DNA of 38,870 nucleotides, taken from contig NW_003143297.1 of the NCBI RefSeq assembly GCF_000003605.2, forward strand, positions 123,782 to 162,651. Direction: 5' to 3'. This document shows, piece by piece, positions 2,014-36,170 of this stretch. Origin of the DNA: Saccoglossus kowalevskii. Taxonomy: Eukaryota > Hemichordata > Enteropneusta > Harrimaniidae. A program made the translations under genes and the position numbers. Under the pieces are notes generated by a model that worked only from the letters and a program-made list of their open reading frames with translations, searched no databases and was not told the origin of the DNA. Position 1 is the stretch's first letter. Each line of letters begins with the position of its first letter.

Positions 2014-2436
2014 ATGGCTGATGCTATGGAGGAAAAAGAACTGACAACGAAGGAAGATCATCATGAGTCTAATCCAGAAGCTGTTTTCCAGTCTATGGAA
2101 GGAGATAAGGACACTGGACCTGTCCGGAGGGTGACCAATTCAATGTTTGCGACTGTGACTGAAAAAATGGGTTCCCTCCCCTTAGGGGGATTCCGTAGGC
2201 AGGATGCTGAGCCTGTTTTTAAGGAGATAGATCGTACACTGAAACTACCCGATAAAAGGGCTGTTTATCGAGCATCCCCAGAACACTTGGAATCTTACAA
2301 TATTCCTGATGCCAGTCGTAACGGAAATTCTAACTGCAAAACAAATCAGGCTGCACCAACAAGTCCTGTTGACCCAACAGAAGCCGACAGTTTGATAGAG
2401 GCGGACACTGCTGTACCAGTCAACGAAAGATTTCTG
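2014..2436 (+). CDS. DPYS/CRMP: Alternative first coding exon 1L: long N-terminus (141 residues)
   Basis: The ATG sits in a strong start context (A at -3, G at +4: gaagATGGC). The 141 codons end with CTG before a GTAATG donor, in phase 0, which matches the acceptor at 10278 and gives ...NERFL joined to TQRILIKGG. Translation past the donor stops after seven codons (stop ends 2457), so splicing is needed. The segment is hydrophilic, starts acidic ([19 protein letters not shown]) and looks disordered at both ends. A more ordered-looking middle lies around residues 40-100, with [10 protein letters not shown] and PLGGFRRQ. No domain is recognised. Vertebrate CRMPs also have long 'A' isoforms made by an alternative first exon, and this has the same architecture. 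I have not shown sequence homology to them. Confidence 0.8.
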
Positions 2437-5400
2437 GTAATGTTAACACGTGATTAATCTCACCACCCATCCATAACCCTCCCATGACCTCTTTACCTGA
2501 ACTCATCTATCCATCATATACTGGCAAGTAAATTGTGAAAACGTACTTGGTAGCCAAACCTCCTCTCCCCACCCTGCCCACGTGTATTATTTCTAGACCA
2601 TGCTTTCCTCTCTGCTTGCTGATTTCAGTAAACATGGCTGCCTCCTACACTTGTTCATAGGCTGAATATTAATAAGGTAGATACACTGCAATCCATTATG
2701 ACTTACCAAGACACATTATGTATTTAAATAATCTGTCTATAACTACATACATATTGTAATGCACCTCATGAAATTGACATAAACATCCTGTCTGCTTTGC
2801 AACCACATATTGTTTCATTTTATTTTGCAATCAATTTTATTTTTAAACATATAGATAAATTGTCTGCTCCCAGGGTGTTGTCAATTAAAAACCAATAGCT
2901 GTGTCTACCACTTTAGTCCAACTACAAATATAAACAACGTATCCCATTCATAATTTTTTTTTTTTACTTTGAGTAATTTCAAAACTACAAAGATTCTGTT
3001 ATGTGTCTTCTCTTTGTCTTAGAAATCTGTCTGTTACCAGTAATGTCACAAATTGAACTCATTGTGCTTTCGTCTATTGTCATGTAAATGAGAAGCTTTC
3101 CCCTGTAGTTAATTGATGTCATAAATCCACTCTATTCTAATAAAGCATTTAACTGCTTTTCAACTTCTGATATATTATAATGGTGATGTCATAATTGTTC
3201 TTTCTCATCTATTTATACATTCAGTTTACCTACATAAAGACGAGCTTCTATATTAATTTTAAGGTTTTGTTTTGTACATGTTCAAATATTTTTAAAATGC
3301 CACAACAAAACCCTCTCTGTATGACAGAGTTTAAAAATACATATTAATCTTGTTCGCCATGAACTCCCACTGATACGTACACGTGTTTGAAATGAATAAA
3401 ACTCATCCAAGCGTATGATGGAATTGGTCTATCACAAGTTGTGTTTTTACCTATTGTTGGTGCCATGTGCAGGATTATTGCTTTGTGTCAACACTAACCT
3501 ATGTGAAATGCACGCTTTAATGTAAAACCAGATTGGTATTTAGATTTATATTTTTAAATTTAATTTGTACAATAACTTGCACACCATTGTTTAAAATAAT
3601 ATTCCACATACAATTGGGGAGAATTGCGATAAATTGAATTTTTGTGATGAAATTGATTTCATTAATAGTGACTTTATTAATTTTTATTTTAATGATGTAG
3701 TATTGCAAAGTTAAACCTGGATGGTTACATTTGTATGCCTGTTTGGGTGAAACCATTATATATGTGTGGTGCGATGCAGAAGGGGAAGGGGATGAGGCTT
3801 CATTGTAATCATCTAAAATTTAGTTCTTTGAGGAAATGTAATATTGGTGCTTCAGTATTACCCAGTGTTTTCCCCCTGTGGTTATAGTTTGTTGAACCGC
3901 AATAAGTCACTTGGCAGTGTACAATGTTGGTGTATCTATATGTGGGTCGAATTACTGTACTACGGTATATTGTAATAACCACACACTAAATACCAATGCA
4001 AGAATTTGTAATGATCCTCTTTCAGTTTTTGGTATGCCAGCATTCATGTCAATTACTGATAATATAAATTTGTATATTTTAGAAATTACCAAGAAAATGT
4101 TTTACTTTAACTTGCATCATGTCAGGTGATTCTGAAAAAAAATTCTATTTTTCAATATTTATGATATATATATATTAAATTTGATTATATTTTCATATTC
4201 AAAATAACAACTTTAAATTGATTAAGTTGAATTTTGAACTTAAACTTTAAAAAATTCTCAATAGATATATGATAAAATATAGATGTTTAAAATAGTAAAT
4301 CAGCTGCTAGTGGGTGTATTTTATAGAAACATGGAAGTGGATACAATTGACCTCATTGTGTGATTTGATCTATTTGAATTCAATCTATTTATGTAAATCC
4401 TGTAACAATCTTTTTGATGAATGGGAAATCCTAATTACATCTCATTTACATATATTGTGTTTTGCATTCTCTCTCTCGTATTGTTTCTCGCATGCATATA
4501 CAACAAATCATTTAATTTTAGCTGCAAGCAGTTTGCACGATTTGCTGATTCATAGGCTTAATTACAAATTTTGTGAAAGTTGCTGTGATTCACTATAAAT
4601 TGTTGTGGTTGTAACTGGTAGAGATTTGTCTCTTCTGAAATTAATGCATTTTACAATATACTATTATAAAGTACACGGAAGCGTACTGGGTAAAGAAACT
4701 GATACAGTCTATCACATTAGGTTTTGTTTTCATTACATGTAAACCTGACACGTCACGTGTCTTGTAATACTAGCATCTAGGCAAGTTACTCCACACATAA
4801 TAAATCATCAACTTTGTACTCAATTATTTTTTTTTAACCTGACCCATCTTTTATTTTTCTCAGTAAATTAGATTTTAGTACCAGTTAGGACAAAATTTAT
4901 TATGTTTTAATGGTGTCTGTTATTGGGGTAATTAATGGCAATGGACATGCAGCTGAGCACTCCAGTTTCGTAATCAATTTAATTTTTTTGAGGTAGAAGT
5001 AATCATAGACATTTAATGAATATTCAAACTTGATTAACATAAATAAAATAATTGGGAAGCAAATTGTACTTTATAATTATTATGAATTGTAATATTCTAA
5101 ATTTTCTGTTTTGTAAGCACTACAATAAATAGTGTGCAGGTCTGCTAGTGTTCTTTTCTTTTCTGTATTCTATGAAATTGTCATAACCAGTGACAGACAT
5201 TGCATGATATTAATGAATGCAAACGTCTGCGGTATTATGAACGTATACTAGCCAATAGAAGATGTGAGCGTCTGCTAGGATTCTTGTACGTGATCACTAT
5301 TACAATGCTGTCGTGCACACATGTCTGGCATAGTGAATGCATCTATTTTAGGGTGTGTCACTTTCTCTTGTTCTGGATCTACCTTTGTACCGTGGAGATT

Positions 5401-8400
5401 TCCACATAATGGCGTCTTATATTGCATAATACGTGGTTTGATGGTCGGACAATGAATGTGTACTCAAGAGGAATTATAGTTTACTGGCTTTACTGGGTTT
5501 GATTATCAGATTTATGTTAATGTTGTGACTTGGGAACATAGCTCATTATGTTTGTGAATTGAATTCATACGTCAGTTGTTACGTTCTGGATGTCAGAAAG
5601 TGCCACATTTTGATTGGCGTACACATGCACTAAAAAACCCAAGTGAAATTTAAAAAATGTTATGTTCTTGTGGTTAGCAGAATTAAAGTTTATGATATCT
5701 AATGTCTATAATACTGGATATGACAATGTCTTTGTATATTATTTATGTTTGGGACAAAATGCTTCATGAATGGAAGAAATACAAAAAAATCAAATATATG
5801 AAATACAGGCCTTACAAATTAATTATTATAAAATTACACACAGTAAAAAGGTGCATTTAAGATGTAAATTGCCTGTCCAAACTTATTATGAATTATTGAA
5901 TTTGGCCTTAGGCAACTATTAATTTTGTTTTTTATTAGTCTTTGAAATAAACTGATTCTCTTGGTCTTGTTAGAATGTGGCCACAAAAATTAGAGAATAG
6001 TACCCCTTGTCTAATATTCATTATCAAAGGTAGAAATACACTGCCCATCTAAAACCTTGCCCATAGGCAATGTTTGGATAAAACATGACTAATTCGTCCG
6101 TAAAATAGCTGACCAGTTTTATACTACTGTGATTATTTGCTACTAAAGCAATGCATTTGTATAATGTGTTCATTTAAAACTTGTTCTGTTCTATTATTTG
6201 CCAACATAATTTGAACCAATGCATAATATTTCATTAAAATCACTGAGTATTTTTTTTCACTATGAGGAAAAATGTAAAATTTGATCTTTTTGTGATGCCT
6301 ATCTTAGAACCAATCATGCCTGATGACTATTAAAATTAGAATAGTGTCAAAAATATGCTTGATATTTTGTAACCTCATTTCATGATTATTGTATTTAGAC
6401 TATAATGGAATGTTTATGATCAACAAAAAATGCACCAAGAGATTGCCCTGAATAGGGTATCAGAAAAATGCAGTAATCACATGTAAAATAAGCACAAGCC
6501 ATTTTATATCTGGCATAATTTTAACAGATCCTTAATTTTGCTAAAAGGCCAACTGTTCTCATTATGATAATTTACAATTTCATACAAATGTGAGCTTATC
6601 TTAAATGGTTCAGTGTGAATTCTTTAAAATCACACCAAAATAAAATGATTTGTTTCACATGTGCCTAATATGGTGATGCACACCTCCTAATCAACTATGG
6701 GAGTCTGTGAGTTCACCTTAATTTTAAACACTCTCATTGTAACAATTAACTTTATTGAATTAAACTAGTAAATATTCTAAGTTAACTATAGCCCTTGATT
6801 CCATGGCTTCTTTTGGGTTGATCTGAGAAAAACAATACTGAAATATTTTTCACTCTCAAAATCTTATTGTGTCTTAGTTCAGACTCCAGAGGACTACCTG
6901 AAATTCAGTTTGTTTTTTAAGAATACTAAGTTTTGTTAATTTTCTAAATCCATCAACATTTTTAATTTTGATCTTGTAAACAAGTATTTTGAATGATTGC
7001 TTCAATATGTTTTCTTACAAAAATTAAGTTCATCGATAAGGTCAAGACACTTTGACCATTATTTATTCAATATTTTTTATACAGGGTGGCCCAACTCAGC
7101 TATAAATAGCTGCTTTCCAATGAGACCTTGTAACATACAACACACATACAACAAAAATTATACAAAATAGTATATCCAATAAAATAAAAAAAAACACTAG
7201 ATATAGCTGAAAATTACCAAAATATACTTAAGGAGACAATATATTTTTTTTTCGAGTTGTATTTAATGTCATGCAATTACAAAGAGTCTCTGGTAGGGCG
7301 TTTTGCAGTTTGGTACCTTGATATTTAAAAGAGGTATGTGACATTGGAATGCCCAGGCAAGTCAGCAGCCGTAGCCTGCCTAGTATTATAGATTAATCTG
7401 AACAGAAATTTGTTGATGTAAATAACAAGGAAATTTAAAATTCATTTGCTGGTTCAACTGTTTCTGGAATATTTTGCCCAGCTTAACCCATGTCATGCAG
7501 TTGTACGCATCAAAATCATCATAACATACTCCAAACTGAAGCTATATGATTCAAAGCTAAATTAATCATAGTATTTCCTGTTCAAACCAGGTAATTTAAT
7601 TTCTCCAACATCATATGAGCTAAATTTAAACCAAATATTTCTCCTATAGTTATTTATAACAATTTATGTATACAAGTATTAAATAAAGGTCATAAAAGCG
7701 TAATTATATTTAAATTGTATTTTCTTTGTTGTGATTTTGTGATTAATTAAGAAATGTTCCCATACATGTCGATAAACAATGGATAATATTCTCTGCTTTA
7801 AATATGTACCAACCTTATTCATTTTTGAGTTGGAAAGATACTAAATCATCTATTACTAACCGTAACCAAGCAACTTCAGATTTCACTTCCCTAGCAACAG
7901 TTATATCGATGTTGTGGGAACCACACCTGCCTTGATGTAAAATGGTTTATAAGGTTTCTATCATTCTGCATTACTAACAATCTCCTGTGAGAAAACATAC
8001 TAATAAAAACAGACATTGGTTGCTGGTTAATTTCACATATTTTTTCCCAACTTTATATATAGATCTGTTAAATATAATATTTGGAAATTCAGAATTTAGT
8101 TATACATTGTAGTGATTTTAGATTCATATTTATTATTGTTGTTTATTAAATTCTTCATTTTTTATCCTAATGCAATTAAGCATGTACTTAAATCTAATCT
8201 TATCGTTCAGACATGAATATTTGGTTAAAAAAATAATGTTAACAGTTCACACACTGTAGTTTAGTAGTAATATTGTTCAGCATCGTAGATAAAGAATTTG
8301 AAATCTTCCGGTTTGTTTATCAAAATAATTATAACTTGGAAATGTATATTCAGTTAATTAATTAAGCGTATGCGATAACAATGGGAATGTTACTAATCTT

Positions 8401-11400
8401 GCTTTTTCTCATCAGTAGTAACTTTACACTAGAAATTACTAACACCTTAGGTAGTTCAATAAACCACTTAACTCACTAAAATTCCATGTATATTGCACGT
8501 GTATTGACTGATGGACTTTTGCAAAAAAAAAACAGGTATTATAGCTTTGTGGTTGATATATATCATTATATAACAACACATACTGAGCGTGAAAGCCCCT
8601 TGTTGGACCGTGAATTGCAGTGAGTCCAACCAATCTATATCAACTACAACGTCAAGGTGTTAAGTGTTAAAAGTCAAAATGGAACACGAGAAAGAGAAAA
8701 TGTCTCTGAAGAAGGTCCCCCACCTCAAGGTATGGTGACTAATATTGTACAAAAATATTCCATTTCTAGGCACAGGTTAAATAGTTAAGTTTTGGGTTAT
8801 GGTGCTTGAAGCAGTCGTTTCTGTCGTGTGTAACTTCACCATGCTTTAGCGGAAGTCATATTAGTTGGTTTATACTTTAATGGTTAATTAAAGTTGATAT
8901 TTTCTTTACTTTGCTTTGCCTCAGTAAATGTTGAGATGCTCTACAATAGAACGCTTTATAAACATCCTGTATAAGCTTTTTCTTGGAATCGCTGCTCTAC
9001 GGTTATAGGCGCATTTATTTGGTGTGGTTGATTTATTCTCATACCTGCTGTCTGTACCCATATGTTTTCGTATCTTCACTTTCATATATTATTAAATCAT
9101 TCACATTATCATATGTCTTTTATTTGCCACATATTTCAAAAAGCTTTGTATTTCACATCTGTCTTCGCTTATTCTTCCTTGTACAAAATGTACGTACCTA
9201 CATGTATTTCCCGACCTCCCATAACTAATTACTCATAACTTAACATAATGTTCCATTTCAGATGCGTATACAATGTTGCCATTTACTTGAATGTATTCAA
9301 ATACAATGTATTTCATTCCTAATATGTGTAACACATGTAATCATAATCCCAAAATTGCATTTGTCACTGAATCATTAAAATATGTCAAAGTTTAATCTTA
9401 CACACACTGCTGTCATTCACATAATAAATGTGCTACTAATACACTATTTACCTGTGAAAATAGCCATAAAAACTTTCAATTTTCTAAATCAATTTGGTGT
9501 AGTGTTGAGACAGGTTTCATTTTTCAACTTTATTTTTATAAATAAATTTGTATTTGGACTAAAACACTGAGAACACGTCCTTTACATTTGCGCTATGGCC
9601 GCCCAACTGAAATGCTGAAAACATGAGTAATACTTTAATAACTGTAATACTTAAATGATCAAGTACATTTGCATGATGGCAGCCCAAATGATATGCTGCT
9701 AACACTGTGCATGTATATACATACTATGTTGGGTGTTTTAATATCTGTCCTGTGTGACATCAACTCAACACCCTCATGTCATTATTTGTGCTGTTACATT
9801 CAAGTTTTATCTTGTACATGTGCACCCTCCCTACCCACAAATATACGTTACCAAGCTGCATGTACGTGTATATGCATTTGTTAAACTAATTTGAAATCCC
9901 CTCACAACTAATTATGGATCTTCATATTTCCCTCCCGCTGATGTGTTTACATAGAGTAACTCTCCTCAGACCCCTTCCCCTTATAAGAACAGCCAGCTAA
10001 TCTGTAATTGTCTACTATTACAATGTATTCGTAATCTTTATGTTATAATCATTAATTACATTTATTGTTTGTCCAGTTACATTGTATGTTTGTCAAAATT
10101 AGTATCAGATAAGGAAATGATTGGGCTTTGTTGTATTTTTGATACTACAATATAGAAGACCAAAATCACCAAGTATCCAGTCTACATTATTTCTCAGTTT
10201 TGTTTTGCAAATATTTCTCAAATTTGATAATTTTGTACCAACAACATGTTTATTTATTTACTGTATTTATTTCACAGACTCAACGAATCTTAATCAAGGG
10301 TGGTAGAGTGGTCAATTCTGACTATTCATTTGACGCTGATGTCTACTGTGAAGATGGCATTATTCGGTAAGATATTATCACAATTTTTAGTCATTTTTGG
10401 TTTGGGGCATTTTAAAAATTAGTTATCAGCTCTATATTTGTACTTTGCAGGGTTTGAAGGCTCAAAATTCCTGACTTGATGACCTTAAAATATTTCCTTC
10501 ATAATTTTAAGTACCAGTAGTCTATAAAGTAATTTTTAGATGTTGTGGCCTTGAATAAAGTGCAGTTAAACTGAGGCTTGGTTTGAAACTAACAATATCT
10601 TAGGGGTATAGCATGTCTAATTTTAGGGGTAGATGTCAATGCATCTATATGCATTATTCTTGTATCTTGATAAGACTTAAAGATCCAATTCACTTGCCCC
10701 GGGTAAGTGTGAATTGGAAGTTGGGCTATGCTAATGAGTGTTGTTAATCACTTGCATAGCCTATGACGCATCCTGTTTCAGCGGCCCAACATCACTTGAC
10801 TTTGATTGACAGGAGTTAATTACTCAAGATTAGGAGCGCGTCACTTTCCCCAGTTCGTGTTTTTGACTTTTATCGCCAAAATCTCAGCTCGTACACTATT
10901 TATTGTCATAAATACTACACACAGTCACTGCTGTGATATTCATAGTTACTTTGGCGCGACATAATCGATCTGTAAGTTCGAGAAAACGCGTTTTTACCGG
11001 AGCTTGGCTGGAGCTGTTTACTACAGCGTGACATGCAAGGCCATAATCCCTATTGTTTAGGAGCGTATTTATAGTATACCTGGGCCTTTAAGTAAATTTG
11101 ACTTTTGTCACTTTCCATGAAATAATCCCAGCATACAGAATCAAGACCTGTAGGGAAAAAGGGAAATTCTGTTCATTTACAGTGTTCCCACCAGACGTGA
11201 AACATATATTTCATGATTTTAGATTTTGTTTGTGCTTTTGAGGGCACTGTCTCCTATACATTGTATAAATTGAACAAAATAAAAATACTGTCTCTGTCCA
11301 ACACTGCATTTACATCAGTAGTCTAAAAATATACAAAAATGGTACAAGTGTGCCCTCTAAGCCTATATGACACAGCACTGATGCACACAAATTTGCTGTG

Positions 11401-14400
11401 ATGCAACTAGTGATGCTAATTCATTGCCGTGTCATTGACGCAACAGAAAATCATAAATTGAAAACATTTGAAAAACATTTCACAATAGATATGGAATATA
11501 TAATTTTGTAAAATTAAATTCACATTTTGTAAACAAAATAAGTTTGAAAACAAAGATAAGTAGTCACAACATTTTTCTTTGTGCCTAGTAACCTATACAT
11601 TCACATACAAATTATTTTTGTTCCTAAAGACCAAAGCCCCCCCCCCCCTCGCACACACCCACAACCCCAGTAGTCAACAAGTAGACTCAACTTAATTTTG
11701 GTGATTCCATTTTGACTAATTGGTACATACATGTAGCATTTTGCCATTTCTTATTAAAATGAATATCTGTTGGTTTCTCATTGCAGTCAAGTTGGTAAAG
11801 ACCTGATCACTCCAGGTGGTGCTACTATCATCGAAGCCAATGGCAAACTTGTCATGCCAGGTGGCATTGATACACATACACATTTTCAAATGCCATTTAT
11901 GGGAACGGTTTCTGCTGATGACTTCTATCAAGGAACTAAGGCTGCATTGGCTGGTGGTACAACCATGATAAGTAAGTACTCGATTCATCAGTACTATCAA
12001 CTGATTTATTGTTACAGTAATTTATCTTCACAGAAGAAAGAAAAAGACTCTTTGGTCTAAGTTACTTATTTTCATTGACTATGCATAATAGTACATGTAA
12101 ACCTGTAGAAAAAGTATTTTATTAATCCTTATCTTGTCGGCCACATGTACTTTTACATTGACTTGACTTGACTTAATCTGTGAATCTGTAAAATGTTTTA
12201 TTCATATTTTGTTAGCTTCCGGGGGAAAAAAATCCTTTTTAGCTATTAAACATCTTATCTTTGCCAATTTATCTATCCTGTAATTTTACTAATTTAAAAA
12301 AGAATATCTTCTCACAAAAGAGATTGTTGACACCCATTTAAGTTTCTGTTAATGTAAATTAATTTGCTAAAATAACTGTTCAAACTATTTTACAGTATTT
12401 TCACTTTAACCAATAGAAAATGAAATTAAAAAGGAAAAATGCATGAAAGTATGCGAAATGTTGGCAAGTTGCCAAGCTTGTGTACATTGTGTCTTGCACA
12501 TAGTTAAAAACGCAAAAAACATTAAAATGTGGCGACCATTATGCCATGTGTGTAAGATTTGCATTGATGGACATTGACTTTCCCACAATTCAATGCATTC
12601 TCCCAGTGACAAGCATAAACATAAGTTTCATATGAATGTGGTGTGTACTAAATAACTTCTTTGATTCCTTGAGTTAAGATTCACCTTAACTCCAATTATC
12701 TTTCTGCAGTGGATTTTGTGATTCCGCAGAAAGGAGAGTCGTTGTTGTCAGCTTACGAGAAATGGCGTTCCTGGGCCGACCCTAAAGTTTGCTGTGACTA
12801 TTCTCTGCATATGGCCGTGACATGGTGGGGTGATAAAGTATCCCAAGAAATGGAAGTACTTACCAAAGACAAAGGTAACAAAATACAGGAATTTATACAC
12901 GACTGTTTTTCTTGTGGGATACACCTGGCATATTCATTGCAAAAATAAGACAGTCCCTGCACAATTGGGATGTTTCTTTCACATCTCTTCTGTAAATTTA
13001 ACTCTTTGTCTGTTGATCTGAATAAAAAAAATATAATAATTTGCCGTTTGAACGGGACCTGTTACTTGAATCTATTTTATGTGTAAACATAAAAAATGTC
13101 ATATCTGAGGCAAGTTGAAGACGAAGAAATCTGAGGGTTATATTGCCTATGTCTGTTTTCTTCTATGCATTTGTGTACTGCTTGGAGTGATTATAAAATC
13201 ATTGTATGTATATTGCTTTTACTATTTACATGTGAATACGTTTTCATTATTTTTCATCTAATAATTTGTGTTTTTACTTGTTTTAGGTGTGAATTCATTC
13301 AAAACTTTCATGGCTTATAAGGATGTTTTTATGTTGAATGATACAGAGGTTAGTCAACTATTTTGTATTGCTTTCAGTGCAAAATGTAAATAACATTTTC
13401 ACTGCTTTCAGTTTTTATGATTAAATATTTTGACTGTGTTAAAAAAAAAAATTCTCAAGTGACTTTAATTCTCTTGGATCCCAATAAAAGTTCACTGACT
13501 TGCTCAAACGCCAGGACAGTCACTGTGACTTCTTAGGATCCCAGGTAAAAGTCAGTGACTCCCTAGAATCGCAGTGAAAGTCATTACCACTCCCTAGGAC
13601 CCCTAGGTGAAAGTGGCTGTGTCCTAATGTGCACATATTTTATTTATCCATGGTTTCATGATTGATGTGGATCAAAATGTTTGTATATATAGACACCAAG
13701 AATTTAATGTAACCAACATATTTTCTTATTCTGAGTGCCAATGATGTCATGTTCCTGAACGACTTCAAAATAACTTTGAAATAGCTCTTCAGTCAATTGA
13801 CTCAATGAATGAATTATAACGATCTCAATTTAGCTAAAGAGCCAACAGTCTCATTGTGAGAACACCTTGAAGCTGAACTATTCCTCTAAACATAGGTGTA
13901 CTCATTATTTTCTTACAGTTATATCACACCTTCAATCGCTGTAAAGAGTTGCGTGCTTTGGCTCAAGTACATGCAGAGAATGGAGATCTGATTGCTGAGG
14001 TAATACATTTATTGTTTTCCTCGCTTATTAATGTGTATATCGTCAATAAATTGTCTAACAATTACTTGTATCAAGTAAAAAGTTGCTATTGTGTGTGGTC
14101 TGAAGTAATATTTTATTATTGTACTGGTACTTGTATAATGAAATTACTTTTAATTCTTTTTATAAAATGGAATACTGAAATGAATAGTAGACTCTTCAGA
14201 AGACTATTATTGAATTGTTTATATACATAAATATTTGTAATTTTCTGTCTTTATCGAGATCCTGTATTATACGTGAAATCAAACGAAAAAAACAGGACTA
14301 AGCATTGTAGTGGTGTCAAAACATGGCATAGGATTTGACAAACGTGAAAGAATTTAATTTAAATACAATGTATGTTTATGTTTAATAATGTGCTATTCTC

Positions 14401-17400
14401 ATTTAAAAATGGAGAATTTTAAAGAGGTATTTCATATTACAATACGAAAAGATTGATATTTCGACATTGACTGTTTAAAATCAAATCATATAGCAACATA
14501 GGTTCGTTCAACATATTATACAATTTCTTATAGTTATTTAACAGAAATTCCACTTTTATCGCCACAATTCTATTTAATGACTTTCTGGTAATTCACAATA
14601 GACTTCAAAGAAAATGTTGGAGTTGGGTATCACTGGACCAGAGGGACATGAAATGTGCCGACCAGAAGAGGTAAGCTACACGTCTCAATATATTCAGTGA
14701 TTGTGATCATACCCTGATTGGTTAAGAAAAGATATACATGTAATGTATTACTCCCCAAACTTGATATCTGTATGTAATTTGTCAACTTCACTGAGTGTCT
14801 TATTAGAATTATCTTTAATTATTGTTTTTCCAACAGTTAAGAATTGTTTGTGAAGGCAATCATTAGCTGATTTCTTTTTAACTAGTTGCTGTGGAGTCCA
14901 ATTAAAAAAAGATGGTTTCCAAAAGCTTAATTTCAAATTTTAGTTGTCCTATAATTCAGTTACTGGCCAGAAATATGACATTTATTTCAACTTTTGAACC
15001 TCACATTTAATAAATAGATGATAACTGAAAAAATAAATACTTCTTCCCGTCATGTGCCAATAAATGACTAACCTTATTAACCGTCCAGAATATCATAGAT
15101 GCTTAGTATGTAAATTACCTATTACTTCAATGAATGCTGGGTAATTAAACTATAGATATAAGTCATCAATACTAATATTGTAGATACCGTTTTTATTTCA
15201 ATGTTAAACACACATACTAGGTGGAGGCAGAAGCGGTAAACAGAGCCATTTGTATCGCTAGTCAGACATCTGTACCGTTGTACGTTGTCAAGGTGATGAG
15301 TAAGAGTTCTGCCAATATCATTGCCGCTGCACGAAAGAAAGGTGACAATTAAATGTATTATAGATGTTGCACAAGCACATTGTTGAGAGAGGTAAACTGT
15401 CTTGATTTTCCCCCACTGATATGATGAAACAAACAATAAATAAATAAATAAATATGAACTGAAATTTGAAACAAATTTTCAATGTCACACTATAGACACT
15501 ATACCTCACTCAATGCTTGGATCAGGCACGTTCACATTATTTAAAGTAATTGTTGTCTTTGTTTTTTTGTCTTGTCTTTCTTTTATCTGCATGTTGTACT
15601 GTACGTCTACGCCGTCTAGGTTGAAGCCGAGGCGACAAATCGTGCTATAGTAATTGCCAATCAAGTGAACTGCCCACTTTACATTGTCCATGTGATGAGT
15701 AAAAGTGCAGCCAATGTTATATCAGCAGCAAGAAAGAAAGGTACCTGCTTGATACCAATTTCAATAAACTATGGATTTTGTCGCAGTTAGTTCCTGGGTT
15801 TGTCCCATGGCATTATGGATAGATATCATCTATATACATTCCCTGGTAGTGCTATATCCATTTCAGCTAAATAGTTCTCTTGTTAGTGTCCCAATAAACT
15901 AGCTATTGCACCCCACATGTGATTCTTTTCAAATCATAAAAATAATCATTCTATTTGTCATTGTGTCCATGTCAGGTCATATTGTCTTTGGAGAACCAAT
16001 TGCTGCATCTTTGGCATGTAATGGAACTCATTACTGGAATAAATGCTGGCGTCATGCTGCTGGCTATGTTTTAGGACCACCGCTTAGACCGGATACTACA
16101 ACTCCTGGTTATCTCATGGATATGCTTGCCAAGTAAGTAAAAAACATTTATACACCAAATAGGTGCTTCTGTGCATTGTATATGATTTTGATCTTGGGAT
16201 CTTTGTACACTTTGCATTCTAATGATGTACAAATTGCATTGTACAAAGTAGTCTGTGCTATATAGGCCATTGTACTTTGTGTGCATGCACACAACTGGTT
16301 GGCAAGAACCTATTGTTCACTCAGCAAGATAAAACAATTGCATTTTCACTGCTTCTGTTATTAAATATACATGTAGCTGTCTATGTTGTAACAGCAGATC
16401 GCATGCTAGTGTTGATCAGTGAGATACATTTGTTATGCTAGTTGACAAAAATGTAAGCAAATGATGTCACAGTGCGACAGCGTATATCTTTACTCAATCT
16501 AAGGAGGACATGCAATGCATCTTCTTCGTATCACTTTATTGTAATTGCTGAAAATCCCAGTAGGGATAACTTGTCAATATTTAGTTATTACAATAATTTG
16601 AGTACACATGGTTGTCTTACTATGTTTATCATTTACAATTTATCATTAATGTACATTTTTTTGTTTCGATACAGCGATGAGTTACAGCTGACTGGTACTG
16701 ACAACTGTACTTTCAACAGTAACCAGAAAGCTATGGGTAAAGATGATTTCACTAAAATCCCTAATGGCGTAAATGGTGTTGAAGACAGAATGTCAGTTAT
16801 TTGGGAGAAAGGCGTTGTAAGTATTGGAATGATTTCTTGGTTGACATGATTTATGGGGGCGAAGCTGCGTCACAGAACGTTCTATGCTGCTAATACATGC
16901 TCCACTGTACCAAGTATTTCTATGTTCTCTGCGCAGGCTGCTGTGGAACACTGATTGAGGAGCTGGTGAAAATAAGTCAGGAAAACTGCTCAAACTCAAC
17001 TCCACTAAATGTAGGGGTAGTCTTGTTACACAACACAACAACAATCCCAAAGTACTTTTTCCTCGCCTTTCCTTAGCTTCTCACTATATAACTGTATTTG
17101 CTCCATCATAAGTGCATCTCCAATAATGTATGTACATGTAAAAATTATTCCTGGTTCCATTAAATGTGAAGTGAAGTAAAAATTATCTTTTTAGCTTCTT
17201 ACTGTTTAAACTATTGGCATCAAGAACATATTTGTATGTGAATTGTGTTTGGAAAACTTACAAATACAAAAGAAATAAAAATAGATGTAATGTAACTAAC
17301 TCCCAAGATGTTGATATTGCTACATTTGCTCTCAATTGAGCAAATACAGTACTCAGAATTTTCAATATTAAGTGTGTTTATTTAAATCACATAAAAAATT

Positions 17401-20400
17401 TTGACAAATGCACATCCATTAGTTACTATTAGCTCATGTAGTTATATATAAAGAAGAAATGCAGTACGCTAACCCTGGTATTTCACTGGGTTTTTTTATG
17501 CTAGCACACTGGTAAGATAGATCCGTGTCGGTATGTGGCTGTGACCAGTACAAATGCTGCCAAGATCTTCAACATCTATCCTAGGAAGGGTGTAATCCAA
17601 GTTGGTTCTGATGCTGATATTGTTGTGTGGGATCCCGATCAGACAAGGACGATATCCAAAGATACCCATCACCAAGTATGTAAATAACGTGTTTATTTCC
17701 ATCGGGTATATGATGTATATGCTGATGTGTTATGTTGTTTTTAAGTATATTTTACCACATTGTATCATAATGTGTGTTTTTGGTACTATCAGGGGGATTG
17801 TCATGTTCATTGCAAATCCTGGACAATTTGTTGAAGAGTAGAATTTACTTACAAATAGCAAATACATGTACTGTAAAATCTGTATTACCCCAGTAGAAGC
17901 TGCTGTAGAATGCAACAGAGGGGATGCGGTTTCTATTAGAACATCTACACATATGAGAAATGATGAATGTTTGGTTCTCAATTATTCATACAAATGAGTG
18001 TGGCTTTTATTGGAGTTGCGACTTCTAATACAGATCTAACATTAGTAACTTTTCAAAGCAAGTCCAATAACCTATGGTCAAATTGAGTCCAGTAACAGTT
18101 AGGTCACTGATCAAAATTGATCCTCAAACACTTGGGTCACAGATAAAACTCCAAGTCCAACACTGAAAGTTATTGTATTGTGAGGTGCCTAATGCCATCA
18201 ATGGATTTTTCTTTGTTTACTATCTAGGCTGTTGATTTTAACATCTTTGAAGGAATGGAATGTCATGGTGTACCAGTAGCTGTTGTCTGTCAAGGTAGAC
18301 TGGTCGTAGATGAAGGTGTGGTGAGTAGGGTTTTTTTCGTTAATCCCGGTCAGAAATGTTAGTGGTTTGATAATTCTAAGTCCCTCTGATCTGTGAAACC
18401 AAGTTTTCACTGTGACAGACTTTGGTACTTTCCATCCTACTGAAATTCATCTTTCGCTTATAAATAGGCTGATTAACAGTATTCACCTATGTAATATTTC
18501 CACCTTAATAGTGAGCCGAAAAGCTGGTTTACACAAGACAATTCTTGAGGAAATGTGTTGAGCAATGCATGATGCAACAGGACACAATAACGGCAGCTGA
18601 CAAATGGGTGATTAATGGTCTAAAAAAATGTATAACATTTCTCGGGTGATGTTACGGTGATTATGTCATACAAACTGAACAGTGGTATTGCCTCTACAAT
18701 TGGATTGTGGTACGCGACTTATAAATAAAACTCTTTATACTGCAAATAACTGAGAGTTGTCACTGTTTCCTTTCAGATGCATGTGACTCAAGGCGCAGGT
18801 CGTTTCATTCCAAATCCAGTCAACTCGCCAACTTGTTATTCGAAAATCAAACGTAGAGATGAGGTAAGAATCTAGTGTAACTGCCCTCTATGGTAGGTAT
18901 CAATAATACATTGTGAGGGCGCTATTCTCAGAGCATGGTGTATATGATGCTGATCTTTTCATACTCTGGAAAAATCTTGTTTACAAAAGTACAGGCGAAC
19001 TTGACTCGTGTGGATTAAAGCAATACTTCATAATTGTTTTTTACAGCTGAATCAACCAAAAGCCGTTGAGCGTGAAGCTTACGAGGGACCAGTTTATGAT
19101 CCCTCCCAGAAAATAGAAAGCCCTTCGCCATCTGACCCACTCACCCACCACGATGAGGATTTAAGTAGTCGACCAACTTCACGTCATGGTGGTCGAGATC
19201 TACATGCGTCAACTTTCAGTTTGTCTGGTAAGTAAAATCAACAGCCTCATCTTATGGCGGTTCTCAGATCCCCATTGTCATTTGCATTTTCCAGCAAGTG
19301 AAAATACATGAAGACGGGCAGAAATGTGTGCTTTAGGGTTGATTTCCTTTTATTCTTACATATTTATTTTGATAATTTCGTCATAGAAAATGCTTTTGGT
19401 TGTCATGGTTTCAGTATAAATCATTGCCCTATGAGATTGTAAGTCATCTTGGTACTGGCACTGTGAATTACGCCCCAGCTTCAAATTTCTTTAATCTTTT
19501 TCTTTCATCGTTTCTTTACTTTCATCTTTCTACTTTTCGTTGTCCCTGTATGTTTATGTGTTTCAGCTCTCGCATCCAGTCCAGTTTCCACTTACTTATC
19601 AAAACGATTTCAGATCTTTATAAGAGCCCTACTCTTAGTATCTTGGATGCATTTATGTGGTTCAACCATCATCTTATCTACTGTCCCTTCCGTCCTCGAA
19701 CAAAAAATATCAAATAAAAGTTTGTGACTTTTCAGGACATCTCATTATCACAGAAGTTTAAGATACAAATTTAATGTTTAATTGGATAGATATCATTTAT
19801 AATTCATATTGATGTAATGTAATGTTAAATTTTGTGATAATGTGAGAAGGTCCCTTAACTGTTATAGTTGGGTATATACGGTATTGGATAATAGTATATA
19901 TGCTTTATGGTTGACTCCTAAAAGTTACACATTGTAGTATTATCCTTAGAGTACTATTTTATTTATTTTTCTATACAATTTACAATAATTTAAATAATCT
20001 ACAGACCTTGATCAAAATTTTGAAGAAAAATCTGAAAAAAAATTGAAAGGTGACAAACTTTGACTTTTGCTCTAAACTGTTTTGTACTTCAGTGACAAGT
20101 TTTTCATTTTTGCTGAGGAAAATAAATGTGAAATTCTTATTTATAGTAATTTTTCCCCCCAGAAATTACCAGGATGTGTGACTTTTAGGAGTCGTGCATA
20201 TTAAAGGATGATTACTTCCAGATAATGGTCTTGCCATCATTGTTGTTGTTATTACAATTGTACAAATATTGACAAAACTTACCTTTCTAACCTGATTACA
20301 GTTGCATTCATGTTTTGCAAATATGTGGAACATCAATCCCAGATCAAACTAAAATAAATACATAAAATGCATAAAAATTAAGTTTTTGCTAAAAAGTATG

Positions 20401-23400
20401 ATATATTAATAGTAGATTTCCTGCCTTCACTTTAACATTCATTTCGTTTTGAGAGTACTGATGGTTTTCATCCTGTATGCAAACATACCTACTATCTACT
20501 GTAAAAGTACTTTATATTCACTTGGAATTAATTTTCGCTGAAGGGATGATTTAGTGAAAATAAAATCCAGTGAATATACCTTTTTTCCCATATTTTACAT
20601 TTAACTTATCAAAAATCAGTGAAAATAAATTCTATACAAAACAGCAGTAAAGTTTTTTCAGCAAAAATTGGTTCCAGCTAAAATACAGTATTTAACTGAC
20701 ATTCAAAGGCAAATAAAGCCTTTTAACTCAGTCTATTGTGCACAAAATAGGTCTATTTAAATTTGTAGTTAATTTCTCATTCAATACTCATCCAAATCTT
20801 GAAATTGGTGTATATATATATATCAGGGGATGGTATTTGACAGATTTGCAAAGTGGGAATGCAACTTACATGTAATCCCAATTAATCCCCCCTCCCCTCT
20901 ATTGGTGTGATGTTAACTTGCATGCCATCCAAGATTGTTGAAACGAGGATAAAACTATAACTTACCTGCACCTGTAGTGAGTGAATGCATGTCAATTACC
21001 ACGTGTGCTTAATTCCTTTAGGTCGGCAGGTGGATGATCATGTGTGTCCACGAGCCTCACATAAGATAACCAACCCACCCGGTGGGAAATCTAGTATCAT
21101 GTTTGGGAACAGTAACTAAGTGTCCATGCACTAGACATACGTATGCTAAGTAATGATTTCATTATACTCATTCAGTGTTAAGTCTGTAAGCGTGATATCT
21201 TAGTGGAAAAAACTCTATAATTATTTGTTCATTTTATTTTATGTTTACGACAGTGACTTGACAACCCTGATGGTAGGATAATTGATCGGACCCGATCAAC
21301 ATTTGCTTGAATCGCACACAAAAATGACACTCTTCTAGAGTTATTCTTTGACTGCAAAATGCACATCTGTACTGTATATTTCATTTGAAAAGCATTTCCT
21401 CATAAGACCAGACGTGCACGGGACGAATATAATAAAAAGTATACTCAGCTTCTGATTGGACACAGACAAAGTTGCGCTTGTACACTGTCGTAAACATTCA
21501 TAAAATATTGCACAGTGATACCAATAATTGATACGCTACCGTAAAGTAACACTGTCATCATCGTAACTGCACATAAATCATTACTTAGCGACCAGTATTC
21601 ATAGAGCTGGTGCGCAATCATTTGTCTGATTTCATCACCATTCAAGGCTTTCCAAAATGAAGTACAACAACATTTACTGCCCATTTGCATTTTGATAGAC
21701 TGCGTAATGTGTACAGTATTGATTAAAACCAACCTAAAACAATATTAGAACAGTTGCACACAAATACATCTGCAGTTCTGATGACAATGTACCTTTAAGT
21801 TTCTGAACACATTGAAATGTTCGAAAAGTGTCACAATTATTGGTGAATTATTTTTCCGATTCTCTGACAGAATTGCTTGTAAACTGTCATAAACATTTTT
21901 ATAAAACTAACTGCATGTATAAATGTAATTAAACTCTAATTTGTCACCAGTTATTTTCAGGTTACATGAGATATAACCCAACTTTTTTTCAGGAATTTCT
22001 TCAACTGACTAAAACATTTTTAGCTGGAATGAAATAGTTAATTATGCTTTTGGTTGTTAATTATTGATGTGGCTAATTAACATTAACTTCAATTATATAA
22101 TCAGATTATTAATAGTTTATTGCATGGAGAGTAAAGCTGAAATTATCTGTTTTATTTTCGTAATAATTAATTTCCCCATTTATGCAGTATAACGTCATCA
22201 ACCCCCATAAAGTTTGTTAACATGCTTCCCATTTTTGCATCAAATCTTCAAAGTGTTCACCCCCCTCCACCCAGCCACACACACATCCCCCACCAGACTA
22301 TAATCAGTGGAGGAAAGATAATCCAACTAACATCCAGAGAGTGACAGATACCCATATATCTCATAAAGTACATCTTTGCGACAAGTGAAAACAATACAAA
22401 TGTATAGACAAGTGACAGTAGATCAGACAAGAGAAATATCACATTTACTCTATTTAAAAAAGCATAAATGTACTGTATTAAAAGTGAACATGATCAAAAG
22501 TATGTATATAATATTAAAATATTAATAACAATTGCTATGGGTTTTAATGTGTGAACCAGATTCTGTAAAAGGGTTAATTATTCATAGGGTTTTAATTTTG
22601 CTTATTTTGCTGACTGGAAATTGTGCTAAATTAAAACCCAGTGATTTTGGTTTTGTCTTGCGGTAGTTTTCCAACAGAAAATCCAGTCTGCTTTTCAGTG
22701 ACTTTATTATTTCCTAAGATCCTCAAAATTTTCAGCAATTGTTTTCACTATGAGCAAAACTAAAGACAATTTTTCTTGCAAATTGCAGATATTATCATAT
22801 GTTAAGGATTTCTAATAAAACCATGGCGATAATACAGCTAATGACATTGCATGTAAATGTCTTTGTTTTTCAGGTTGACAGCAAAGTAACTAACTGTTGC
22901 ATGTAATTAACCGCACCTTCTCATATCAATAGGTAGTGAATAATGACAATCAATCTTCCAGTACACCTCGTCACAATTCCCCCTCCTTCACTCCCTCCCT
23001 CTCCTTCCCTCTCTCCACACACAATCACAGATTAAATGTCACTCTCTATTCGTCCTTCCTCTGTTCATTTCACTTCCTTCCTATCTATGCATTTATTGAG
23101 ACTGATGTAATCAATAGTTACGGCATGTACTAATGTGTTGTGTGCTACTCATGTTGTGTTATTGATTTTGAAGTGGCATGATTTACATGACTAAAATTAA
23201 TCAACCTGTTTTGAATGACAAGTAATATAGCTATATTGTGGTGTGTCCTTGCAACATCATCCCATCACTGGATTTTTAACACTCTTGTCACGAGTGAAAC
23301 TGAAGTACATATACCGGGGTATGTCATGGGTATTTGTGAAACCAAAAAGGAAATCCTACTAAAATTTTACTATTTTCAATTTGGACATATTTATATAAAG

Positions 23401-34149: not shown

Positions 34150-34719
34150 TCACTGATTAATAAAGTCAGAATTATTTAATTCACCGCTAGTTTTTTCATT
34201 CATAGCAATGTCGTAGCCTTCTTTGAGGCAATCTTTGATATAAAAAAACAAAAGCTTCCAAGATTCCTCGACTTCTGTTGTGAATCTCTGCCCCAGTTCC
34301 TCTTGCCATACACTTAACATGGCTTCCTCAAAGGCGTCGAAGTAGTCCGGTTTGAAACCTTTGAAACGTACATGTGTTTTGGCAAGTTTAACAAGCAGTG
34401 GTCTCAGCGCGTTGTCTAAATCGTTCAAATTATCGATGGCTGCTCCTACACTCTGCATAAACCGAGACGAGTGCATCCTGAAATGCGGATTTGCCGAAAG
34501 ATTGTCTCTTCCCTCAATGTCTCTTGTCGGAAACATATACTTGATTTCTGGGTGCGATTCAAAAATATTAATGAAGATCTTCTGTCCGTTTTCTGTCATA
34601 TCATTCGCCAGTGGTCGCCATGTTTTGCGCACAATTCTTTTTTGCCGGTCGTCTAAGAGGTGTTTGTCGTCCACTGGAGTTTGGAAATCGCGTTCGTTAA
34701 TAGATGGTGTGCATCCCAT
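34150..34719 (-). CDS. Globin, globin X-like, N-acylated, single exon
   Basis: The product is a 189-residue haem globin. The start is at 34719: context gccATGG is strong, and an in-frame TAA lies 12 bases upstream. Globin landmarks are all present: Trp34 in helix A (RKTW), Phe63 at CD1 (KYMFP), distal His83 at E7 (FRMHSSRF), proximal His116 at F8 (LAKTHVRF), and Trp154 in helix H (EESWKLLF). The protein begins MGCTPS, which fits N-myristoylation of Gly2 (Ser at position 6) with palmitoylation of Cys3, as shown for globin X. Membrane attachment and a redox or signalling role rather than oxygen transport are therefore likely. The C-terminus extends about 20 residues past helix H. Most animal globins have introns at B12.2 and G7.0; here the fold is uninterrupted. 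Globin X membership is inferred from the MGC start and general similarity; neuroglobin-like is the alternative. Confidence 0.93.
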   Translation of the reverse strand: MGCTPSINERDFQTPVDDKHLLDDRQKRIVRKTWRPLANDMTENGQKIFINIFESHPEIKYMFPTRDIEGRDNLSANPHFRMHSSRFMQSVGAAIDNLNDLDNALRPLLVKLAKTHVRFKGFKPDYFDAFEEAMLSVWQEELGQRFTTEVEESWKLLFFYIKDCLKEGYDIAMNEKTSGELNNSDFINQ

Positions 34720-36170
34720 GGCGCTTGGTTATCAGAGTGATATTACAGAACAGATTATTGCAGTCACAGTATCGAGTATGTCGTTCTCCATCAACGTTTT
34801 GCAGACTAATCGTAACCTTCCTTCCGTATCGCTCGTTCTCCACGTTTGACTCTTGATAATGGTTCGACCCGTACTTATAACCGGGATAGTACGCACAGTG
34901 TTGAATAACCACTGTTTATATGCAAATTAGAAAAAAAAATTTTTAACCTCTCGCCGAGTCAGTAATATACGTAGCACGTTGCGTGGTCTTTCTTCACGTA
35001 CTTCCTTCATTATTGAAAAACAAACATCATGAGCAAACCGGAAGTCATGCGTGGATGATGCATTTATCTCTATAGCAACCAGTACGTCTGCCACTTCCCA
35101 ACCTCGACCTGTTGGTTGGGATCATTCAACTTATAGTATGTATAAATTACTCCTTCAAAATTCCACTCTTCCTCAATGTCCGTTTTTATAACTTCTAGGT
35201 CACATGATTTGACCAAGTACCACTTTAAGGTAGCGGGAGTATTATTTTCATGGAAAATTTTCCATTATTTTCATTGAAAATTATTCATTAAAGCAGCATT
35301 CCTGCGGATCATCGCAGCTTATATTGTGAATTCAAGTTGAACAACTCACATGTATTTTATTGATAAACACATTATATTTTCGGGAAAAAAGAAATAGATG
35401 GAAAACGTTGCTCGCTGTATAGATTTTGTATAATTTTACATTCTTTTGTGAAATCCTAAAATTTATTCGATGTCGGGTTTTTTGAAATGAGGTTCATTGC
35501 TATTTATGTGCGTGTACCTCCAGGGGAGACGAGAAACACTGTCGTTAATCATAGGAAAGTAAATGGGTATCATTTGATTACTTCGACCGCTTATCACGGT
35601 GTTATACGTATTATCACAAGCATCTCGAAGCAACCTTGATCTCGATGTTAATCCCCGAATTCATCGGTATTTGTTGTTATTGTCGAAGAAAATCTCAGTG
35701 GATATATTATAAAATGTCATTGCTGTACCTGTAGATTACAGAATAGGAGAAAATTAGAATATATACGATTTTTCGTTTTTGTTTTTTTCAATAAGAAATT
35801 CCGTTACCACTGCGTAGTTTAATAAAAGTAGGGATATATAATTATTCTTAAGTAATTTAAATAATATATGTTGGAACACCCGTGGTTCAGTGAATGATCG
35901 CCCAAAGCATACTTGAAAATGACTATCGTAAATGTTATGTTCCACTGCTTATAGGTGTGTATCCACACGCCATAGAAGAATTTTGTACTTCTATGGCTTT
36001 ACGTTTTTAAACCGATTGTATGATTTGTCCACTCTGTTTGCGTCCATAGCTTTGGCCTCCTTTGAAATAACATGAACTCAATGTAATGACAAACACGCGT
36101 TAATTCGAAATATTTAACAACAAATTGTGAAGATCCTAGAATCGTATAAAGTTCTATTCACAACGTATTA
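34720..36170. other. Upstream region of the globin gene
   Basis: The globin promoter should lie here. On the - strand there are TATA-like strings around 34872-34880 (TTATAAGTACGG) and 34911-34920 (TATAAACAGT), about 150-200 bases before the ATG. I cannot decide between them or exclude an upstream non-coding exon. The rest shows no gene or repeat. Confidence 0.4.

Follow-up and report, generated by a model that had tools for sequence, protein, structure and literature searches.

The CRMP gene of Drosophila melanogaster, in which the paired exons 9a and 9b were reportedly described by Morris et al. in 2012, is the closest described case of a single gene that serves both as a dihydropyrimidinase (DHPase) gene and as a CRMP gene. 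In the available text of a review, exon 9a gives the dihydropyrimidinase (DHP) form and is non-neuronal, exon 9b gives the CRMP form and is neuronal, only the DPYS-like form supports pyrimidine catabolism, and the two forms are separated by tissue (PMC8652244). The available portion of a second source gives the change between the two forms as His to Gly at residue 192 (PMC7954323). The sequence treated here is a 38,870-nucleotide stretch of the enteropneust hemichordate Saccoglossus kowalevskii (contig NW_003143297.1, positions 123,782 to 162,651; hereafter the window), which carries a complete-looking gene of the dihydropyrimidinase/CRMP family on its forward (+) strand (window positions 2014-21119, the strand and numbering used for all exons below). 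A preliminary description of this DNA had compared it with the Drosophila gene as one that makes both protein types by alternative splicing, a statement that is confirmed second-hand by the two sources above as far as their available text goes (PMC8652244, PMC7954323).

As in a Drosophila-type switch, the hemichordate locus combines one gene with two homologous exons that differ at a zinc ligand. These tandem exons, 8a and 8b, are probably used one at a time, so that the only family gene found in this animal would encode either an enzyme (with 8b) or a CRMP-like non-catalytic protein (with 8a). The same switch had been proposed in the preliminary description, and it draws support from the logic of the reading frame, the restriction of the change to the position of human DPYS His248, the inactivity of a bacterial enzyme mutated at the corresponding residue (H239A), the CRMP-type tail, and the finding of no other gene of the family.

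Exon 8a (15221..15341) and exon 8b (15620..15740) are 121 nt each, share the same phase and are separated by an intron of 278 nt (15342..15619); the pair lies between two constant exons, 7 (14602..14670, 69 nt) and 9 (15976..16132, 157 nt). The coordinates, lengths, phase and spacing of the pair were exact on recheck, and the protein identity of 29/40 between the two exons was reproduced. At the nucleotide level the exons are identical at 78/121 positions (64%). Synonymous differences between them are saturated (proportion of synonymous differences, pS, 0.84) and non-synonymous differences are few (proportion, pN, 0.21; corrected distance, dN, 0.25), which indicates that the duplication is old and that both copies have been under constraint. 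When 120-nt segments were drawn at random from the window (n=50,000, skipping draws that fell inside the locus or contained N), the best identity to 8b was only 9/40. All internal exon ends of the rebuilt gene are AG/GT, and the frame that begins at the ATG is open over 707 residues with either 8a or 8b, the sole stop codon being in exon 15. Inclusion of both exons creates a TGA where 8a meets 8b, ending the frame at residue 400, and omission of both shifts the frame, which then ends at residue 391; the full protein thus needs exactly one of the two. Exclusivity would therefore be enforced at least by the frame, and transcripts with two exons or none would presumably either undergo nonsense-mediated decay or yield a shortened product.

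Among the metal ligands, only one differs between the two forms. In alignment, the column of human DPYS His248 holds Lys in 8a and His in 8b, as first described; elsewhere it holds Lys in CRMP1, CRMP2 and CRMP4, Asn in CRMP5, and His in 11/11 enzymes (two vertebrate, one from Dictyostelium and 8 bacterial). The other five ligands are intact and lie in constant exons, again in agreement with the preliminary description: His67 and His69 in exon 3 (11787..11971, 185 nt; HTH), the equivalent of Lys159, the lysine to be carboxylated, in exon 5 (13287..13348, 62 nt), that of His192 in exon 6 (13919..13999, 81 nt; VHAENG) and that of Asp326 in exon 10 (16675..16816, 142 nt; TGTDN). The 8b form accordingly aligns with all six ligands present (H, H, carboxylated K, H, H, D) and would be a working dihydropyrimidinase. 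The 8a form lacks the complete set that characterizes the enzyme, having Lys in place of the His248 ligand, and shares with CRMPs the replacement of that ligand. The loss of the carboxylated lysine and of other ligands in the four aligned CRMPs is absent from it (K159, H67, H69 and D326 are retained): one ligand is lost in the 8a form, five of six in CRMP1, four in CRMP2 and three each in CRMP4 and CRMP5, with CRMP3 outside the alignment. By this feature the 8a form would function like an early CRMP and not like one of vertebrate type.

The expected effect of the replacement can be read from a bacterial enzyme. In the available text on Pseudomonas aeruginosa DHPase, Ala at any one of the six ligands, H239 included, gave inactive protein (PMC4437985). 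H239 aligns with His248, and the mutagenic H239A primer printed there, by our own reading, encodes LYLV-A-ISSREA, which is the aligned stretch with Ala for His (PMC4437985, in part). The 8a form should therefore neither bind the second zinc nor catalyse the reaction, although its fold and tail would be unchanged, and with 8a spliced in, the product would be a CRMP-like non-catalytic protein. CRMPs are described as being without DHPase activity in the available part of a further source, which also gives CRMP-4 two of six ligands and a leucine in place of the bridging lysine (PMC4051505); our alignment of the CRMP4 chain 4cnt differs, with three ligands retained and a methionine, a discrepancy that has no bearing on the window gene. 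By analogy with the fly, use of 8a would be neural and use of 8b non-neural.

The assignment of the gene to the family, and of each exon to one side of it, was examined against PDB sequences. Over the constant part, identity reaches 69% with human DPYS and 67.6% with a fish DHPase; it is 61% with the enzyme of Dictyostelium and lies at 56-60% for CRMP1, CRMP2, CRMP4 and CRMP5. The top match of this part is a dihydropyrimidinase (2vr2). Exon 8a matches CRMP2 best (E 2.8e-13, with vertebrate DHPases at 1.2e-8 to 7e-8), and exon 8b matches the fish DHPase best (E 2.2e-14). Exon 14 (19047..19227, 181 nt), in which the CRMP-like tail begins, and exon 15 (21022..21119, 98 nt with the stop codon) encode a CRMP-type C-terminus of the pattern FSLSG..DDHV..RAS....PPGG.SS, compared by eye with the CRMP2 and CRMP5 tails and found closer to that of CRMP5 than to that of CRMP2. 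These exons are constant, so the enzyme form would carry the CRMP-type tail too. The preliminary description had also held that the residues around the ligand follow CRMPs in 8a and DHPases in 8b, and this stood in part: Val-6, Thr-16 and Lys-24 of 8a are each common to 3/4 CRMPs, but its YVV is DHPase-like, the corresponding residues being YIT or YVT in 3/4 CRMPs, and 8b is equidistant from CRMP2 and DPYS (9/41 differences each).

Copy number was assessed in a genome assembly of 572 Mb in 4,830 contigs, in which only the best candidates were scored. All matches fell inside the window gene, whether the query was the 534-residue protein (14/14, E up to 10), the family profile TIGR02033 (10/10), part of CRMP2 (8/8) or the exon peptide (2/2), and no second gene of the dihydropyrimidinase/CRMP family was found in the assembly searched by these protein, profile and exon-peptide queries. 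The assembly may be incomplete, so single-gene status applies to this assembly only; the published Saccoglossus genome is larger than the assembly searched. With human UPB1 (beta-ureidopropionase) as query, seven collinear exon matches of one multi-exon gene were obtained (contig C3365:119927-124206). They cover residues 2-193 of 306 with identities of 60-77%, two of the seven being weak (E 0.008 and 0.01), and indicate that this type of search is sensitive. The UPB1-like gene, of which this part was found, would supply the next enzyme of uracil breakdown.

The age of the exon pair was examined with two trees, one for the constant part and one for exon 8; the sequences in them were the window gene, ten from PDB and five of the 80 bacterial loci fetched. 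No relatives were found in viral contigs, and the best 80 of 230 confirmed loci in genome contigs were all bacterial by title, so that the comparison was made with the window gene as its only animal locus. In the constant-part tree the hemichordate gene lies outside vertebrate DPYS plus CRMPs (SH-like approximate likelihood ratio test, SH-aLRT, 91.3; ultrafast bootstrap, UFBoot, 66). The approximately unbiased (AU) test gave 0.83 for this position, 0.24 for a position with DPYS (not rejected) and 0.03 for one with the CRMPs (rejected). In the exon-8 tree, 8a joins CRMP1, CRMP2 and CRMP4 (87.4/84), and 8b joins the vertebrate and Dictyostelium DHPases weakly (72.6/31). The grouping of 8a with CRMP1, CRMP2 and CRMP4 is better than that of 8a with 8b by 6.8 log units, and in simulations in which 8a and 8b were sisters this gap was reached in 0/60 cases (largest, 2.4). 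Such a conflict between exon tree and gene tree is expected if the pair is older than the divergence of hemichordates from vertebrates, with the exons later shared out between duplicated vertebrate genes. The trees are thus suggestive of an old exon switch, and the pair is likely to predate that split and to have been divided in vertebrates between the DPYS and CRMP genes, a point that is not settled.

A fuller scenario can be built on this, which we consider evenly poised between right and wrong. The Lys/His exon pair would go back to the latest ancestor that hemichordates share with vertebrates, or perhaps to that of bilaterians, and vertebrate DPYS and CRMP genes would be duplicates that each kept one exon. 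As long as the enzyme depended on the exons common to both products, these were protected from decay. Before the genes separated, loss would thus have been open to the swapped exon's ligand alone, and the further losses in CRMPs would have followed; this accounts for one lost ligand in the 8a form and three to five in the aligned CRMPs. The hemichordate would then retain the condition that gave rise to the CRMP family.

The strongest competitor of this ancestral-pair scenario, somewhat doubtful in our judgment, is an independent origin of the pair in hemichordates (and in flies), with convergence after loss of the zinc ligand as the source of the residues that 8a shares with CRMPs. Several results favor it and weigh against a shared origin. 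The AU test does not reject 8a and 8b as sisters (p 0.245; with the added constraint that the pair lies outside the vertebrates, 0.14), and when the His248 column is dropped the gap falls to 2.3 log units (AU 0.44). Convergence caused by loss of the metal site lies outside the model under which the simulations were run. Over 41 residues, only CRMP2 (9 differences) is nearer to 8a than 8b is (11); CRMP4 ties (11), CRMP1 (14) and CRMP5 (21) are farther, so that 8b is at least as near to 8a as 3/4 CRMPs are. CRMP5 falls outside the CRMP clade in the exon tree, and a tree constrained to include it there, with 8b next to the DHPases of vertebrates, is worse by 5.0 log units (AU 0.12; resampling of estimated log-likelihoods, RELL, 0.03). 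The fly accounts point the same way as far as their available text goes: the DHP form is 9a and the CRMP form 9b (PMC8652244), the reverse of the present order, in which the CRMP-like exon comes first, if the letters follow the genome as is assumed here, and the stated replacement is Gly at residue 192 (PMC7954323), not Lys as in 8a, perhaps at another ligand or in another numbering. These differences in exon labels and in the replaced residue leave room for a separate origin. Against it stand the simulations already given, the number of differences between 8a and CRMP2 (9/41), which is below those from 8b (11) and DPYS (15), and the presence of Val-6 and Thr-16, besides Lys-24, in both 8a and 3/4 CRMPs.

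Further points weigh against the proposed switch between enzyme and non-catalytic protein itself. The gene was read from DNA alone, and mutually exclusive splicing is predicted from frame logic only. The NCBIfam dihydropyrimidinase model, TIGR02033, scores the 8b form at 629 bits and the 8a form at 623 (cut-off 393) and so does not separate them, and 8b matches CRMP2 (E 9e-14) better than human DPYS (5.7e-13). At the ligand in question, the substitution tested in the available text on the bacterial enzyme was Ala only, never Lys (PMC4437985). DPYD, the first enzyme of the pathway, was not found with PF14691 or NF006183, family models being weak on genes split by introns; this weakness is illustrated by PF01979, which matched 2 exons of the window gene and nothing else.

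An improbable alternative is that both products are enzymes, with Lys altering metal content or substrate so that the 8a form is a modified amidohydrolase. It would fit the retention of 5/6 ligands in the 8a form and the production and crystallization of a mono-zinc (Zn-alpha only) P. aeruginosa DHPase (PMC8860565, available in part). Each single-ligand Ala mutant of that enzyme, H239A included, was nonetheless inactive (PMC4437985, in part), and Lys at this site is the state of CRMP1, CRMP2 and CRMP4, in a family that the available text describes as devoid of DHPase activity (PMC4051505).

Less probable still is the possibility that 8a is the relic of a duplicated exon, left unspliced in a gene that makes dihydropyrimidinase only. 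Immediately upstream of its acceptor, exon 8a has a pyrimidine fraction of 0.47, the lowest among 14 scored; measured over 50 nt the value is 0.54, which is low but within the range of the others (0.52-0.70). In addition, it is farther from the DHPases than 8b (15 vs 9 differences). A relic would not be expected to keep an open frame, intact AG and GT ends and a length of exactly 121 nt, nor to show saturated synonymous and few non-synonymous changes together with a close match to CRMP2; moreover, the donor of 8a scores above that of 8b (6.68 vs 5.11). That the pair is the product of misassembly, from two alleles or a paralogue joined in error, is practically negligible, given a nucleotide identity of 64% (78/121), far under the allelic level, and no second gene found as a possible source of an exon.

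How one exon would be chosen over the other was considered from the surrounding sequence. The intron between 8a and 8b contains, upstream of 8b, a U/C-rich tract with four TCTT in 100 nt, a density that occurs in 1.3% of intronic windows drawn at random, being one of several features examined, and one TGCATG at 15588; control of splicing through these elements is possible, as a lead only. The low pyrimidine fraction before the acceptor of 8a is another lead of this kind. With 37 copies of TGCATG in the window vs 30 expected, the one upstream of 8b is not notable. Steric exclusion of the kind known from tropomyosin is unlikely, the intron being 278 nt long and the AG-free zone before 8b, at 73 nt, being ordinary (four other acceptors have zones of 72, 73, 80 and 99 nt). 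For pairing between introns the sequence offers at most faint candidates, namely three inverted repeats, weak and AT-rich, of 14-16 nt. The suggestion that no donors of the gene are weaker than those of 8a and 8b failed: the score of 8b (5.11) was the lowest of 15 sites, that of 8a (6.68) was not.

The remaining exons complete the gene. Exon 2 (10278..10366, 89 nt) has AG/GT ends and DPYS/CRMP homology; exons 4 (12710..12874, 165 nt), 11 (17505..17675, 171 nt), 12 (18228..18320, 93 nt) and 13 (18777..18863, 87 nt) are constant parts of the rebuilt frame. The coding part of exon 1 (2014..2436) has an ATG start, is in phase with exon 2 and ends in a GT donor; as the first exon of a long form, it adds an N-terminal extension of 141 residues. 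It lies 7.8 kb upstream of exon 2 and is without a Pfam match in this part. Vertebrate CRMPs have forms with a long N-terminus, of which this exon might be the counterpart; an alternative short first exon of the CRMP gene may exist.

Two observations were made outside this gene. On the opposite strand of the window, at 34150-34728 (-), an uninterrupted frame of about 190 amino acids contains a globin domain (PF00042, E 7.6e-21), apparently without introns, and begins with MGC, as do membrane-anchored globin X-type proteins. In the assembly, the mitochondrial contig (C4830, 17,037 bases; genes named by eye) carries cox1 on the strand opposite the other long frames and nad5 adjoining cob; it has a tRNA-Lys with anticodon TTT, uses AAA, and contains AGA rarely (8) and AGG only twice, in a presumed out-of-frame reading of nad3. 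The available text on the S. kowalevskii mitochondrion gives COX1 as inverted, ND1 or ND2 as transposed, tRNA-Lys as UUU, AAA as Lys and AGG as absent (PMC3121625), and nad5 and cob are adjacent in hemichordates in the consulted part of another source (PMC2697986). Gene order and code of this contig agree with Saccoglossus, which places the animal in that genus or close to it and hence among the deuterostomes.

How an enzyme gave rise to a family of cytoskeletal signalling proteins is an open question of CRMP origin, and one deuterostome gene that seemingly makes both by a swap of 40 residues is a testable intermediate. The order of events that it implies is an exon switch first, then gene duplication and further decay of the ligands. 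It extends the switch described in the fly to the vertebrate side of the animal tree, so that whether the switch is ancient or was invented twice becomes answerable from the locus in other animals. In the literature, judged by titles and the starts of abstracts among the matches listed, no report of such an exon switch outside flies was found, which is weak evidence of absence; the key Drosophila paper may discuss other animals.

Set beside known systems, the locus resembles each in part. The full ligand set of vertebrate DPYS equals that of 8b plus the constant exons, and vertebrate CRMP1, CRMP2 and CRMP4 have the same Lys as 8a; in vertebrates, however, DPYS and CRMP1-5 (DPYSL1-5) are separate genes, where the hemichordate has one. 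The difference from PKM is that the swap here removes a catalytic metal ligand, so that the kind of protein changes and not its regulation. What is common to both is the swapping of tandem homologous exons within one protein, as in mutually exclusive exons of the PKM type (PMC7954323, in part). The fly CRMP gene is the nearest relative in kind: as far as the available accounts go, it too is a single gene with a homologous exon pair, one form keeps a His important for pyrimidine catabolism, and one form was matched to DPYS and the other to CRMP1. The present case differs in belonging to a deuterostome. Drosophila already provides the mechanism as such; the novelty lies in its apparent presence in a hemichordate, together with signs of a common origin of the CRMP exon sequence and 8a.

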